Shown: positions 19,635-32,658 of the stretch, one piece after another
Layout of the letters: each line of letters begins with the position of its first letter
How positions within the stretch are numbered: the stretch's first letter is position 1
From: a virus
Reading direction: 5' to 3' (one strand)
DNA: 38,666 nt
Virus record (IMG/VR): IMGVR_UViG_3300023174_000346
Location: 1 to 38,666 of that record
Made by a program: the position numbers and the translations under genes
Notes under the pieces: generated by a model
Database searches by the model: none
The model's input: only the letters and a program-made list of their open reading frames with translations
Told to the model about the DNA's origin: nothing

Positions 19635-20516
19635 TTATGGGTTTTTAGATGACCGCACTTGTAAAGTAGCTTCTCCCTTTAACACAGCCGCCATTTGATC
19701 TTCGCGCTTGGTTCTATTTTCTGCTCCTCGCGCAGTTTCCACCGCATAAGTAAAGCAATCTTTCATGCCTTTCAGTGCGTAATAAACTACTGAGTATCTG
19801 TAAGAATCTTCTTTTGTCGGCATCATAGGTGTTACTCCATGCACATATTTGTAGCCGGGGAAAAATAAAACCCAACCATCGCGACAAGCACAAGTAAGTT
19901 TATATTCAGGGAAGTCTAAATATCCACCCTTCATATCGCGCCTAATTACCGGCATAGCGCTCCAAGTAGCAAAGTTAAATCCATCTCTATGGTAAGGCAG
20001 AGTCGAAGCTTTATTAACTACGCCAGAAGTCCATAAAGCATCATCAGTCATACGCCATTCGTTATCTAATCCAGCCTCAGCCAAGTTTTTAACATCGTTC
20101 TCGAATATTTGTGGCGCAAATTCTTTAAACATTCTTCCAAACTTCTCAGCAAAAGCTATTAATACCGCGTGTTCATTGGGTTGTTCGTTTGCAAGCGTAG
20201 TAGGACGGCAAGACTCCCTGCGTTGGTATATTTTGCGCGGTGCCATACCAAATGTTCGTGAAGAGTTTTCAATGCCTAGGCTTTGGCGCTTGGTAGAGCC
20301 GTACTTAATATTCATTACAGACTTGCGCAATAAATTGACTTCTTCTTCCATTGGAAAGTAAGCTAAAAATGGTTCTTCCGTGTCTTCGTCTATGTAAATA
20401 CCCGGTTCGATACAATTAGCTTCTAAATCGTCTACCATTTTGCCAACCAATTCGGTAGCTTCGTCTGGGGTTAATACGCGCTTAATTCTAAATATAGGTA
20501 ACTCAGATAGATTCAT
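19635..20516 (-). CDS. TET/JBP-like 2-oxoglutarate/Fe(II) dioxygenase
   Basis: About 293 residues from the ATG at 20516. A TTG at 20549 would add 11 residues. The metal triad lies in the double-stranded beta-helix: LPYHRDGFNF gives His and Asp (residues 176 and 178 from this start), and FFPGYKYVHGVTPM gives the second His (226). SYRYSVVYYALKGMKDCF carries the 2-oxoglutarate Arg (240). The GGYLDFPEY and TWSAMPV segments match phage TET/JBP proteins. Known phage members oxidise 5-methylcytosine in DNA to 5-hydroxymethylcytosine. The adjacent glycosyltransferase and the C5 methyltransferase at 31483 support that role. It overlaps the ParB-like gene. Confidence 0.85.
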   Translation of the reverse strand: MNLSELPIFRIKRVLTPDEATELVGKMVDDLEANCIEPGIYIDEDTEEPFLAYFPMEEEVNLLRKSVMNIKYGSTKRQSLGIENSSRTFGMAPRKIYQRRESCRPTTLANEQPNEHAVLIAFAEKFGRMFKEFAPQIFENDVKNLAEAGLDNEWRMTDDALWTSGVVNKASTLPYHRDGFNFATWSAMPVIRRDMKGGYLDFPEYKLTCACRDGWVLFFPGYKYVHGVTPMMPTKEDSYRYSVVYYALKGMKDCFTYAVETARGAENRTKREDQMAAVLKGEATLQVRSSKNP

Positions 20517-21174
20517 CTTTTGGTGCACTCTCTCCCGATACATCTTCAATTAATCTTACAACCGCATCAGCATTAGTAGTCAAACCGTGTTGAGCGCGAT
20601 AGGCAGATAGTTTATCAATTAACCAGACATAAGTTGTGTTGTCGTAATCCATCATTAACATTCGCGTTGCTTTTTGTGCGTAGCGTTCAGCATATTCACC
20701 GAGAGATGTGCCGATATTTACATTGCTTAATCCAGTTTCGCCTACCTTTGGCGCCAAGTGGATACCTGCGCCTAAGTTCGGTGTAGTTTCTTCGTCTAGT
20801 AATGCCATCAAAGAATCTACATCGTCTTGCGAATACCCAGTTGCTTTTAAGTCTGGTAATTCATCTAATAATTCTAGTAATGTTTCCGTGTCGTAAGTGC
20901 CCATATCTGAAGTCTTATTGTCGATCGCTACTATCTTGGCCGCTGTCGCTTGATCTACATCTACATAATTGACTGAAATATCTGCCCAGCCTAATTTCTT
21001 TGCTGCGGCGTAAGTGTGGTTGCCAGCCAATATTTCTTTAGTGCGAATGTTCACTGTTATTGGTTTGTATTGACCGTAAGCAGATAAAGATTCGGCTATA
21101 AGATCAATATTACCTTTGCGTGGGTTTTTAGCGTATGGAGTTAATTCATCAAGCGCTACTTGTTTTATTTCCAT
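20503..21174 (-). CDS. ParB/sulfiredoxin-like nuclease-domain protein
   Basis: A 223-residue protein with an N-terminal ParB-like domain: LTPYAKNPRKGNIDLIAESLSAYG, a YKPITVN strand, and ILAGNHTYAAAKKLGW (residues about 12-80), the nucleotide-binding/DNA-contact core. A DDVDSLMALLDEE-like acidic patch follows at residues 112-130, then a helical tail. Phage ParB-like proteins frequently neighbour DNA modification genes, and this one overlaps the TET-like gene by 14 bases (47 with the TTG start). It could direct or regulate modification or act as a nuclease. No second ParA partner is present, so partitioning is unlikely. Confidence 0.75.
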   Translation of the reverse strand: MEIKQVALDELTPYAKNPRKGNIDLIAESLSAYGQYKPITVNIRTKEILAGNHTYAAAKKLGWADISVNYVDVDQATAAKIVAIDNKTSDMGTYDTETLLELLDELPDLKATGYSQDDVDSLMALLDEETTPNLGAGIHLAPKVGETGLSNVNIGTSLGEYAERYAQKATRMLMMDYDNTTYVWLIDKLSAYRAQHGLTTNADAVVRLIEDVSGESAPKDESI

Positions 21175-26389: not shown

Positions 26390-26761
26390 TTATTTTTTGA
26401 GTAGCCTTATTTCTAGACCGGGGGAACTTCCGTATATTTTATGAGCGTGTATTTCTACTACTTGTCCGTCGTCTAAGTAAGCTACTCCAGTAAGAGCGTC
26501 GAGCGCGGCACGAATAAGTTTGTCGAGGTCTGGCGCTACTGACGGAAACTCGCGCTTCACCGTTTTTGGGCGGGGCATAATAAATACTAGAGTCATTTGT
26601 ATTGGGTCTGCTACTGGTATTGCTCCAGCTTGTTTCGCACTCCACGCAATAGTAGAACGCCATACGGCGAGCGCTGAGCCTTGTGAGTGTAATACTCGAC
26701 CGTTAATAACTTTCATCGAGCCTTGAGGCACTGGTATGCCCTCGGCGCGAAATTGAATCAC
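26390..26761 (-). CDS. RusA-like Holliday junction resolvase
   Basis: A 123-residue protein from a GTG start that overlaps the preceding stop. It has the RusA pattern: an FRAEGIPVPQGSMKV strand, VFIMPRPK, and the catalytic region APDLDKLIRAALDALTGVAYLDDGQVVEIHAHKIYG with conserved Asp residues in PDLDKL and LDD. RusA enzymes cut four-way junctions formed during replication and recombination, so the DNA can be packaged. The gene is grouped with the replication initiator and the ERF and Cas4-like genes. Confidence 0.88.
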   Translation of the reverse strand: MIQFRAEGIPVPQGSMKVINGRVLHSQGSALAVWRSTIAWSAKQAGAIPVADPIQMTLVFIMPRPKTVKREFPSVAPDLDKLIRAALDALTGVAYLDDGQVVEIHAHKIYGSSPGLEIRLLKK

Positions 26762-27008: not shown

Positions 27009-27797
27009 TCAAATACGCTTCAAAATATCCTTAAAATAATCAGGCATAGGTATAGCTTTTTCGGCTTCTCGCTGTTGCTGTTCAATCGCCTTCCGTGAGG
27101 CTTCTCGCTCCCTTTCGCTTTTCTCCCTCGCCACTATTAACTCTCTCGCTTTTATCTCCTCTACGGTCATTTTACGAGGCGGTAATGGCTCATCTAGCCA
27201 GCGTTCAGCGTTTAACCAAGTCGCCGGGTGCGGAGTGAAACTCGGATCGCGGTTTGGGTCTGCGGCAAAGCGCATTGCACCGTCAATAACTGCCTTTGGG
27301 TTCTTTATTTTCTCCCAAGCTTTTCTCGCTGAACCCTTTGCTGTCTTTCGTGGATAAACTTTCCAAAACTCATCGAACATAGATGTATCTAAGGATGGTT
27401 CTATTGAATGATTCATAGGGCGCAATTGTCGGGTCGTATCGGTCGCAGATGTCGCCTCGTTCAAGTCGTTATTGTCGGGTCGTGGCTTACGACCAGTCAC
27501 CATGTCGCCTCGTACCCTAACTAGGTTGATTTTATATAAATGGGGTCGCCTATCGTCTCGGCAATTAATAGAACCGCCTCTACCCTTATCCATGCGCAAC
27601 CAACCATCGGCAACAAGTTTATTAACACACCTTTGCACCGTGCGTATTGTCAAACTCGCCCGGTTAGCAATAGTTTGCTGACTTGGCCAAGCGTTATCGC
27701 CTTCGTCTGAAGCGTGATCGGCTATAACTAGCAATACCATTTTCTCGCTAGTGGGAAGCTTCGTTCTCCAAACTTCCGTCATAACTCGTATGCTCAT
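27009..27797 (-). CDS. Replication initiator (helix-turn-helix, lambda-O-like organisation)
   Basis: A 262-residue protein. AGGAGG lies six bases before the ATG at 27797. Residues 15-80 form a winged helix (EKMVLLVIADHASDEGDNAWPSQQTIANRASLTIRTVQRCVNKLVADGWL), as in phage replication initiators. Residues about 95-130 are a variable linker whose DNA carries four iterons. Residues 140-200 (DEFWKVYPRKTAKGSARKAWEKI, PHPATWLNAERWLDE) are the usual C-terminal domain of phage replication proteins. The last 60 residues are a charged helix. Binding to the iterons and recruiting the host helicase is inferred. The WhiB gene overlaps the start by 50 bases. Confidence 0.85.
   Translation of the reverse strand: MSIRVMTEVWRTKLPTSEKMVLLVIADHASDEGDNAWPSQQTIANRASLTIRTVQRCVNKLVADGWLRMDKGRGGSINCRDDRRPHLYKINLVRVRGDMVTGRKPRPDNNDLNEATSATDTTRQLRPMNHSIEPSLDTSMFDEFWKVYPRKTAKGSARKAWEKIKNPKAVIDGAMRFAADPNRDPSFTPHPATWLNAERWLDEPLPPRKMTVEEIKARELIVAREKSEREREASRKAIEQQQREAEKAIPMPDYFKDILKRI
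27427..27513. repeat. Four iterons in the initiator gene; candidate replication origin
   Basis: Four 11-base repeats of TGTCGNNTCGT start at 27427 (GG), 27450 (CC), 27473 (GG) and 27503 (CC), where the letters give the variable pair, alternating perfectly. The spacing is 23, 23 and 30 bases. The copies lie in two reading frames of the gene (RGDM and RPDN in one, EATS and TTRQL in others), so they are not a protein repeat. An AT-rich run follows at about 27527-27543. The layout resembles the lambda origin, where iterons lie within the O gene. Confidence 0.7.
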
Positions 27798-30908: not shown

Positions 30909-31508
30909 ATGACAACCCTTGTGGCTATACAAAATTCGGAATGGTCAATTATTGCGGCAGATTCGCAAGCAACCGATTCTGTTAGAAAATACGATATTTC
31001 CCCAACCGGCAAAATCAACTTAAATAATGGTTATTTGTTTGCTTCTGCTGGCTTGTGCCGAGGTCAAAACTTATTAGCATTTGGTTGGACACCGCCTAGA
31101 CCGCCTAAATCTAATTTAGATAAATTTATTACTCAAACTTTTATACCGTCTATGCGTAAATATTTTATAGATTCTGGCTACGACATGAAAGACGATGGCG
31201 ATATCGCAAGCTTCGACAATGACTTATTGGTCAGCGTCCGTGGAGTTATTTATAGTATTGATTCTACTTACGCTTGGGAGCGTACTGCTGGCGCTATATA
31301 CACCGCCGGGTCAGGAGGGTCTTACGCTATGGGCGCATTAGACGCCTATCAGATTGAAGACAAAGAATCCTATGAGGAAGCTATTGCTATTGCCGTTCGC
31401 GCCATCGAAATAGCCATCAGGCGCGACCCTTACTCTGGTGGCAAAGTCCAAATAGGAATACAACACCGCAATGGTAAAAGCTTTATTGAGACATTAGACG
31501 ACGAATAA
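30909..31508 (+). CDS. Proteasome/HslV-like Ntn-hydrolase
   Basis: A 199-residue protein and the only plus-strand gene. After removal of Met1 the sequence reads TTLVAIQN, with Thr1 as the expected nucleophile. IIAADSQAT places Asp at position 17 of the mature chain, exactly as in HslV, and PTGKI supplies a lysine at 34, matching the catalytic Lys33 with one insertion. YTAGSGGSYAMGALDA matches the HslV/proteasome Ser-Gly-Gly loop (GSGG). The family makes self-compartmentalising peptidases. Cutting host or phage proteins is inferred. It has a strong ribosome site (GTGGGAGG), converges with the methyltransferase by 26 bases, and has no ATPase partner gene nearby. Confidence 0.82.
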   Translation: MTTLVAIQNSEWSIIAADSQATDSVRKYDISPTGKINLNNGYLFASAGLCRGQNLLAFGWTPPRPPKSNLDKFITQTFIPSMRKYFIDSGYDMKDDGDIASFDNDLLVSVRGVIYSIDSTYAWERTAGAIYTAGSGGSYAMGALDAYQIEDKESYEEAIAIAVRAIEIAIRRDPYSGGKVQIGIQHRNGKSFIETLDDE

Positions 31509-32658
31509 TCCATTCTACGACTGGTACGGCTACCGCATTACCCATTTGCTTATATCTATGACCGTCAGTTTGTCCTTCAGTCCAATTATCTGGGAAACCT
31601 TGTAGGCGCTCGCATTCTATTGGAGTGATGCGCCTGACAGTAAACTCTGAACCTACCATCGGCATATTATTTCCCCCGGTACCCATATAACCAGTCAATG
31701 TATTCATAGTTTCGTTTTGTATTCTAACTCCGTCTGATCTATGTGGGTCAAAAACAATTACCGTTGCTCGCGTATCTCCGTTGTTTTCAAATCTATTCAA
31801 AGTCGGTGCCACCCCCCCCTCTATCCAAGTTTCGAAATCTTCACTATTTTGCGCTCGGCGCGACTTAGCAAAAGAAACTATCAAATTTTCGCTACCGCCA
31901 CCGACATCTCTTCCTGCTGAACGCAAAGTAGATAATTTACTTATTACTATATTTTCTTCTGGTCTTTTATTGCTAGTAGCCGTTAATGTAGTTAATCCTT
32001 CAGAGTATCCTGCGAAGCTTGACTGTCCGAAACCTGCTGTAACGCTGCCTGCAACATCGGTGGAAGTGTTTTGCCTCTGCGGTTCGCTCTCCTTAATATT
32101 CCACTTGCTGCTTTCGCCGATAGCAAGTATTTCCGCAGGTGTTCGCCCATCGTCTCCAAGACATCCGACAATAAAGACCCTTCTGCGCCGTTGTGGAACT
32201 CCGAAGTATTGAGCGTCAAGAACCCGATACGCGATCCCATACCCGAGTTCAGCCAACGACCCGAGGACGATTCCCAAATCTTTTCCTCCGTTTGATGACA
32301 ATAAACCGGGTACATTTTCGAGGATAAAGTATTTTGCTTTGGTTTCATCGAGAAGTCTGTGTATTTCCCAAAATAATCCTGAGCGTTCGCCAGCAAGTCC
32401 TCTACGCTTTCCTGCGACTGATAAGTCTTGGCAGGGGAATCCACCGACAATAATTCCATCTGAGTTGAATCCGAATCTAAATAATTGTTTTCCTGTGACA
32501 TCTTTCACATCCTCCAATATTTGTGATTTTGGGAAGTGCCTTGCTAATATTTTTCGAGCATTTTTATCTATTTCTACCGAAGCTACTACCTCTACTCCGT
32601 TGCGTTCTAACGCTAAGTCAAAACCGCCAACGCCAGCAAATAATGAAACTGCTTTCAT
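31483..32658 (-). CDS. Cytosine-C5 DNA methyltransferase
   Basis: A complete 391-residue enzyme. Motif I is LFAGVGGFDLALERNG. The catalytic loop (motif IV) is GGFPCQDLS with Cys76. Motif VI is ENVPGLL (Glu114), VIII is QRRRRVFIVG (156-165), and the target-recognition stretch lies between about 170 and 340. IX is RRITPIECERLQGFPDNW and X is KQMGNAVAVPVVEWI. It transfers methyl from SAM to C5 of cytosine in a sequence not determined here. A TET-like enzyme elsewhere in the genome makes further oxidation likely. A run of eight G residues (31812-31819 on the other strand) encodes EGGV. The 3' end overlaps the Ntn-hydrolase gene. Confidence 0.95.
   Translation of the reverse strand: MKAVSLFAGVGGFDLALERNGVEVVASVEIDKNARKILARHFPKSQILEDVKDVTGKQLFRFGFNSDGIIVGGFPCQDLSVAGKRRGLAGERSGLFWEIHRLLDETKAKYFILENVPGLLSSNGGKDLGIVLGSLAELGYGIAYRVLDAQYFGVPQRRRRVFIVGCLGDDGRTPAEILAIGESSKWNIKESEPQRQNTSTDVAGSVTAGFGQSSFAGYSEGLTTLTATSNKRPEENIVISKLSTLRSAGRDVGGGSENLIVSFAKSRRAQNSEDFETWIEGGVAPTLNRFENNGDTRATVIVFDPHRSDGVRIQNETMNTLTGYMGTGGNNMPMVGSEFTVRRITPIECERLQGFPDNWTEGQTDGHRYKQMGNAVAVPVVEWIIRRLMSQ

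Follow-up and report, generated by a model that had tools for sequence, protein, structure and literature searches.

A run of short direct repeats inside the replication initiator gene of a phage raises the question of whether the phage begins its replication there, within the very gene that encodes the initiator. Origins placed in this way are textbook knowledge for lambda, and for most other phages we know of no known origin. In the case of mycobacteriophage RepA, a study from 2020 only guessed that the origin lies in or beside repA (PMC7157519). Here we have analyzed a stretch of 38,666 bp (the window), which is the linear 38.7-kb contig of an IMG/VR record, and its features are collected in Table 1.

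The array is formed by four exact copies of TGTCGNNTCGT with the centres GG, CC, GG, and CC and spacings of 23, 23, and 30 bp, just as and where the original prediction had placed them, and a search of both strands found no further copy in the remainder of the 38,666 bp. The number expected by chance in the window is 0.13, and none of 100 dinucleotide shuffles contained at least four copies. On the gene strand the repeat reads ACGANNCGACA and the copies start at offsets 284, 314, 337, and 360 of the gene, so that all three reading frames are used; the earlier statement that the copies fall in different frames therefore stands with the amendment that two of them share frame 2. That they are repeats at the DNA level, as had also been proposed, is borne out by the 23-bp spacing, which is not a multiple of three, and by synonymous codon shuffling with the protein held fixed, in which no shuffle out of 5000 brought the best spaced word to four copies and one brought it to three.

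Table 1. Features of the initiator locus and other genes of the window mentioned in the text (motifs are given on the gene strand)
Feature	Position	Strand	Remarks
Replication initiator gene, 262 aa	27009..27797	-	HTH_36 and phrog_270 matches
Arg56 codon, recognition helix (RTVQR)	27630..27632	-	covariation; predicted reader of C:G at ACGANNCGACA position 10
Arg80 codon, wing (RDDRRP)	27558..27560	-	covariation; predicted reader of iteron 5' C:G (position 2)
Iteron 1	27503..27513	-	ACGAGGCGACA; 30 bp to iteron 2; frame 2
Iteron 2	27473..27483	-	ACGACCCGACA; frame 2
Iteron 3	27450..27460	-	ACGAGGCGACA; frame 1
Iteron 4	27427..27437	-	ACGACCCGACA; frame 0; second array begins 23 bp further on
Second array, copy a	27406..27414	-	GAATCATTC; frame 2
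Second array, copy b	27393..27401	-	GAACCATCC; frame 0
Second array, copy c	27381..27389	-	GATACATCT, weakest; frame 0
RusA-like resolvase	26390..26761	-	PF05866, 4.5e-17; adjoins initiator here and in Arthrobacter phages
TET/JBP-type oxygenase match	19635..20549	-	PF12851, 5e-7, below cut-off; PHROG name queuine tRNA-ribosyltransferase
ParB-like gene	20503..21174	-	overlapped by the oxygenase ORF
Proteasome-subunit-like protein	30909..31508	+	PF00227, 8e-11
C5 cytosine methyltransferase	31483..32658	-	

The initiator passes the cut-off of a single Pfam family, HTH_36 (2e-14), and most of the protein (residues 1-243) is covered by a match to phrog_270, 'replication initiation protein' (E 9e-41). 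A PDB sequence search returned weak wHTH matches only, among them DnaD (DnaD-like winged helix, E 0.0014). The AlphaFold2 model (pLDDT 81) has a winged helix (aa 1-97) and a helical C-domain (aa 139-262), separated by a disordered linker (aa 99-138, with pLDDT <50 at 99-106 and 109-124), and with a pTM of 0.39 it does not give the relative placement of the domains. The iteron array sits in the linker part of the gene, and because this stretch encodes a disordered segment its amino acids are free to obey DNA-level constraints. The gene belongs to a run of overlapping genes on the same strand, and its other neighbours encode a WhiB-like protein and a PD-(D/E)XK nuclease. Neither a helicase nor a polymerase was found among the window proteins scanned, which were part of the ORFs, as expected if the phage recruits the host replisome. 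Elsewhere in the window, the oxygenase match and the C5 cytosine methyltransferase make a 5mC-based DNA hypermodification possible, and the proteasome-subunit-like protein, unusual for a phage, is encoded by one of the few plausible plus-strand genes.

The search in related phages that the original prediction had called for gave a uniform answer. An array with 23-bp spacing is present at the same location in 29 of 29 full-length relatives (52-76% identity), so that, counting the window, all 30 full-length genes have it and none keeps the protein without the repeats, the case that the original prediction had named as its refutation; the top autocorrelation lag is 23 nt, no codon multiple, in 28 of the 30. 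The consensus of the relatives is ACGRNNCGACW on the gene strand, in a unit of ∼23 bp with a free central pair, and the pairs found at the same sites vary between relatives (GG/GG/GG/GG, GG/CC/CC, GA, CA, and others). As the central pair is free, the GG/CC alternation that had been pointed out is real in the window but incidental, and we rejected it as a functional signal. Furthermore, the copies within a genome vary in concert, with GGCGGCG in all four copies of one relative (L021), CGACT in all four of another (L023), CGTCA in three copies of L015 and a concerted change also in L026, and the residues that the copies encode differ from frame to frame. Beyond this family, the Arthrobacter phages, whose initiator is ∼40% identical, have five iterons with GGGGTG cores, mostly at 22 bp plus one step of 30 bp, and nearly all of them show 22 and 11 nt among the top autocorrelation lags, neither being a multiple of three; Pseudomonas phage JBD68 likewise has a 22-bp array, and a clear array was not seen in distant homologues such as L053, L059, and L064. 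Another group (L131, L136, L194, and similar) has the helix R(T/A)VQ(A/Q/D)xIKWL and common CCCCCGCAG iterons spaced by 16-17 bp upstream and 22-23 bp downstream, which raises the question of whether these may be auxiliary plus core iterons.

The repeats could instead be operators, with transcription controlled through them by the initiator itself or by the product of a neighbouring gene, for example the WhiB-like protein. Winged helix-turn-helix domains are in fact frequent in repressors, and autoregulation is common among the initiators of iteron plasmids. However, the array is internal to the gene, 280-370 nt past its start, and within the overlapping same-strand run, the window holds no other copy, the position in the linker is kept across phages with differing upstream genes, and the protein belongs to the replication initiators of phrog_270, so we consider operators improbable.

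That the repeats are read by the initiator is suggested by covariation of the iteron letters with the recognition helix and wing, and the Arg56 codon does not overlap the iterons. Among the Arthrobacter phages, ACGGGGTGMCA iterons go with a VQR helix and an RSDRRP wing (class 1) and (C/T)(T/A)GGGGTGMAM iterons with a VQN or VHS helix and a (P/A)ANRRP wing (class 2), and phage Andrew combines a VQN (Asn) helix and an RADRRP wing with the iteron ACGGGGTGMAC, a mixture which indicates that the predicted helix and wing contacts are separable. Thus, helix Arg goes with C, and Asn, Tyr, or Ser with A, two bases past the core, and wing Arg goes with the 5' C; Arg-G:C and Asn-A are classical pairings. 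We also searched 2.9 million viral contigs for pairs of window-type iterons with 23-bp spacing, using the DNA only. Of the resulting 80 loci, 76 lay in the sense strand of wHTH initiator genes and none was antisense, which together with the covariation supports the earlier proposal of putative initiator sites inside the initiator gene. One of the four loci outside detected initiator genes (L524) looks like an undetected one, and we found no convincing satellites or free-standing iteron copies. The residue of the predicted contact is Arg in 75 of the 76 genes and Ile in the other; among genes with CGGGGYGACW pairs it is likewise Arg in all 26 that could be aligned, whose helices are varied (RNVQRC, RQAQRI, RQVKRI, RTVRRH), and in none of those with GGGGTGMAM (A-type) pairs, which have Tyr (47), Asn (10), and others. 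In 19 loci (L601-L719) GGGGTGMAM pairs are antisense in initiator genes, suggesting initiators with iterons that point the opposite way.

The association holds when genes are grouped by winged-helix identity with both sites masked. In clusters at 50% identity, helix Arg is found in 13 of 13 C-type versus 0 of 18 A-type clusters (Fisher p=4.8e-9), and at 70% the counts with and without Arg are 24/0 for C-type and 0/32 for A-type. For the wing, Arg occurs in 11/14 versus 0/17 clusters at 50% (p=4e-6), a comparison in which the 5' C is inherent in the C-type search pattern, and the association inside the A-type genes alone is weaker (6/10 with C and 0/22 without it, 70% clusters). A tree of the C-domain gave six helix and six base changes, and the independent pairs on well-supported branches agree in three of three cases, too few for significance. 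There are exceptions (L214 and L237, with Arg but GTG in place of xCx), and, because the winged helix and the iterons lie within ∼250 bp, a single recombination event could move both, so that some of the joint switches may reflect a transfer of the N-terminal half as a linked unit. In the Arthrobacter phages Galaxy, Abidatro, and Chickaboom (L090, L114, and L117) an Arg-type core, ACGGGGCGACA, lies out of register at gene offset ∼341 within an array that is of the Asn type elsewhere, as if left over from a change in iteron specificity. All these data lead us to predict that the initiator reads the iterons through the helix Arg, on a C:G pair, and the wing Arg, on the 5' C:G. If this code is true, the initiator of the window and those of Coral (gp44, of the Arg type) and Galaxy (gp42, of the Asn type) would each favour their own iteron among ACGGGGTGCCA, CTGGGGTGAAC, and ACGACCCGACA; the code (Arg-C:G at two iteron positions, Asn/Tyr-A) could be tested through single substitutions, and it predicts which phages have a common origin specificity.

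The same data bear on the possibility that the array serves another DNA transaction, as a partition site for the ParB-like protein or as a packaging or recombination site. The window does encode a ParB-like protein, ∼6 kb from the array, and direct repeats also make up partition sites, but the iteron letters covary with the helix and wing of the initiator itself and the scanned pairs fall in initiator genes, which makes this even less probable than operators.

Besides the incidental nature of the alternation and the unit of ∼23 bp, the original prediction had missed a second array next to the iterons. In the window it is degenerate (GAAYCATCC-like, 27381-27414), with spacings of 13 and 12 bp that are common to most relatives, often as three copies of GAAACACCC. 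In the Arthrobacter phages, three to four GAACCGTCCTT-like words follow immediately 3' of the iterons at distances of 11, 11, and 12-13 bp, with all three frames represented in their translation (RTVL, EPSL, NRPS), and GAACCRTC at 11-13 bp spacing is found in phages of many hosts. In 81 distinct linkers, picked by protein similarity and including near relatives that inflate the count, the counts of GAACC[AGC][TC]C in the three frames are 51/21/30 versus 13.9/0.45/7.9 after codon shuffling, and outside the linkers the word occurs only six times in 46.6 kb of the same genes. A DNA-only scan for GAACCRTCN{3,4}GAACCRTC placed 76 of 120 loci in wHTH initiator genes, none of them antisense; a scrambled version of the word had 2 of its 120 loci there. 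Sites with 11-bp spacing are distributed 18/19/5 over the frames, whereas those with 12-bp spacing are in frame 0 only (EPSx), so coding bias contributes too; in bacterial genomes, three-copy matches were mostly 12-bp coding tandem repeats (20 of the 118 tallied were in wHTH genes, and 12 of the 29 with an 11-bp step). When 74 representatives were chosen by their iterons, the top downstream 7-mers over codon shuffles included ACCCAAT, CACCCAA, TAGAACC, AGAACCA, and AACCATC, and at least two strict GAACCR[TC]C copies were present in only 11 of the 74, so the motif is loose; in nine of these 11 the array starts ∼20-23 bp past the last iteron core. We found no papers in the open-access literature that name this array or the origins of the Arthrobacter phages.

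The least probable explanation of all is that either kind of repeat simply follows from a protein linker that is repetitive or of low complexity. The linker is disordered, and the single frame of the 12-bp sites reveals a protein-level bias in part of the second array of other phages. However, the copies here use all three frames, none of the spacings of 22, 23, and 11 is a multiple of three, the repeats are not recovered by codon shuffling and the covarying residues lie outside them.

The AT-rich stretch reported beside the iterons is a modest enrichment over the window mean of 57.7%, with 68% A+T at 27523-27547 (80th percentile of 25-mers) and 62% at 27373-27422 (68th percentile of 50-mers). 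We rejected the former, upstream stretch as an opening element, as the same codons are not AT-rich in the relatives. The proposed check by cumulative GC skew was uninformative: the curve falls straight through 27 kb, with no turn at the array within the window, and has its minimum near 35-36 kb.

Taken together, the repeats are very probably docking sites of the phage's own initiator within its gene, and we assign a probability of about 0.9, on sequence grounds, to 27381-27513 being the replication origin of the phage, used in the following way. The winged helix would bind the four ∼23-bp direct iterons, with the recognition helix on the 3' ACA half and the wing on the 5' AC half, the iteron-bound initiator would form a nucleoprotein complex, and the second array, 23 bp past the last iteron, would then be opened or used for helicase loading. 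For this last role, suggested by the case of lambda and by the DUE repeats of plasmids, which Rep binds as single strands (PMC4081077), we see roughly even odds. More tentatively, and slightly against the odds, GAACCRTC arrays may be an origin element of a hitherto undescribed, sequence-specific kind that phages of many hosts use for opening or helicase loading, strand-oriented, phased at about a helical turn and located about one iteron length past the last iteron. If so, this element and the helix/wing code would allow both the origins of phages and the specificity of these origins to be read off the sequence. The second array is kept across hosts while iterons and domains change, which raises the question of what reads it.

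The site is thus best read as a putative in-gene origin of the HTH_36 type, accompanied by a second array that is sequence-specific, and lambda-O-like in layout but with a non-homologous initiator. It has the tandem direct repeats (∼17-23 bp, in fixed register, in or next to the initiator gene) of iteron-type origins, and, as in lambda-type ones, several iterons lie inside the initiator coding sequence; at the place of the AT-rich element it has a conserved repeat array with 62-68% A+T in the flanks. Ori-lambda similarly has iterons of ∼20 bp, four in number, placed centrally in the O gene and an opening region 3' of them (L249; PMC7466680), but its iterons are hyphenated inverted repeats (ATCCCTCAAAACGAGGGA), unlike those of the window, and its flank is strongly and not mildly AT-rich. 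The parallel drawn with the lambda O gene therefore holds for layout and not for ancestry: lambda O and P22 gp18 both pass PF04492, which is absent from the Pfam matches of the window initiator, and hhalign against lambda O found no similarity (probability 0.3%). The origin in P22 gene 18 also has in-gene iterons (20/24/23 bp) and, where the window has its second array, short A/C-rich repeats (ACAAAAGACAAT, 14 bp), but with a PF04492 initiator, another iteron and AT-rich repeats instead of GAACCRTC; A-rich repeats (ACAAAAGACA...) occupy this position in both lambda and P22. In SPP1, gp38 binds direct repeats in its own gene, beside the DUE of oriL (PMC6316719), although this phage encodes a helicase and a loader of its own and possesses a further origin (oriR), and the likeness to the window is one of layout. 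Iteron plasmids (such as RK2 with TrfA) combine iterons with a repeated DUE, of which Rep proteins bind one strand and all 13-mers are needed (PMC4081077), and thus provide a model for the second array, but their origin is outside rep and the protein has two winged helices. Finally, the Arthrobacter phages (such as Coral, Galaxy, and Andrew), whose initiators carry no annotation beyond helix-turn-helix or replication initiation protein, the origin being unannotated in the stretches read, share with the window a homologous initiator, an iteron array and the second array, and differ in the GGGGTG cores and two specificity classes of their iterons.
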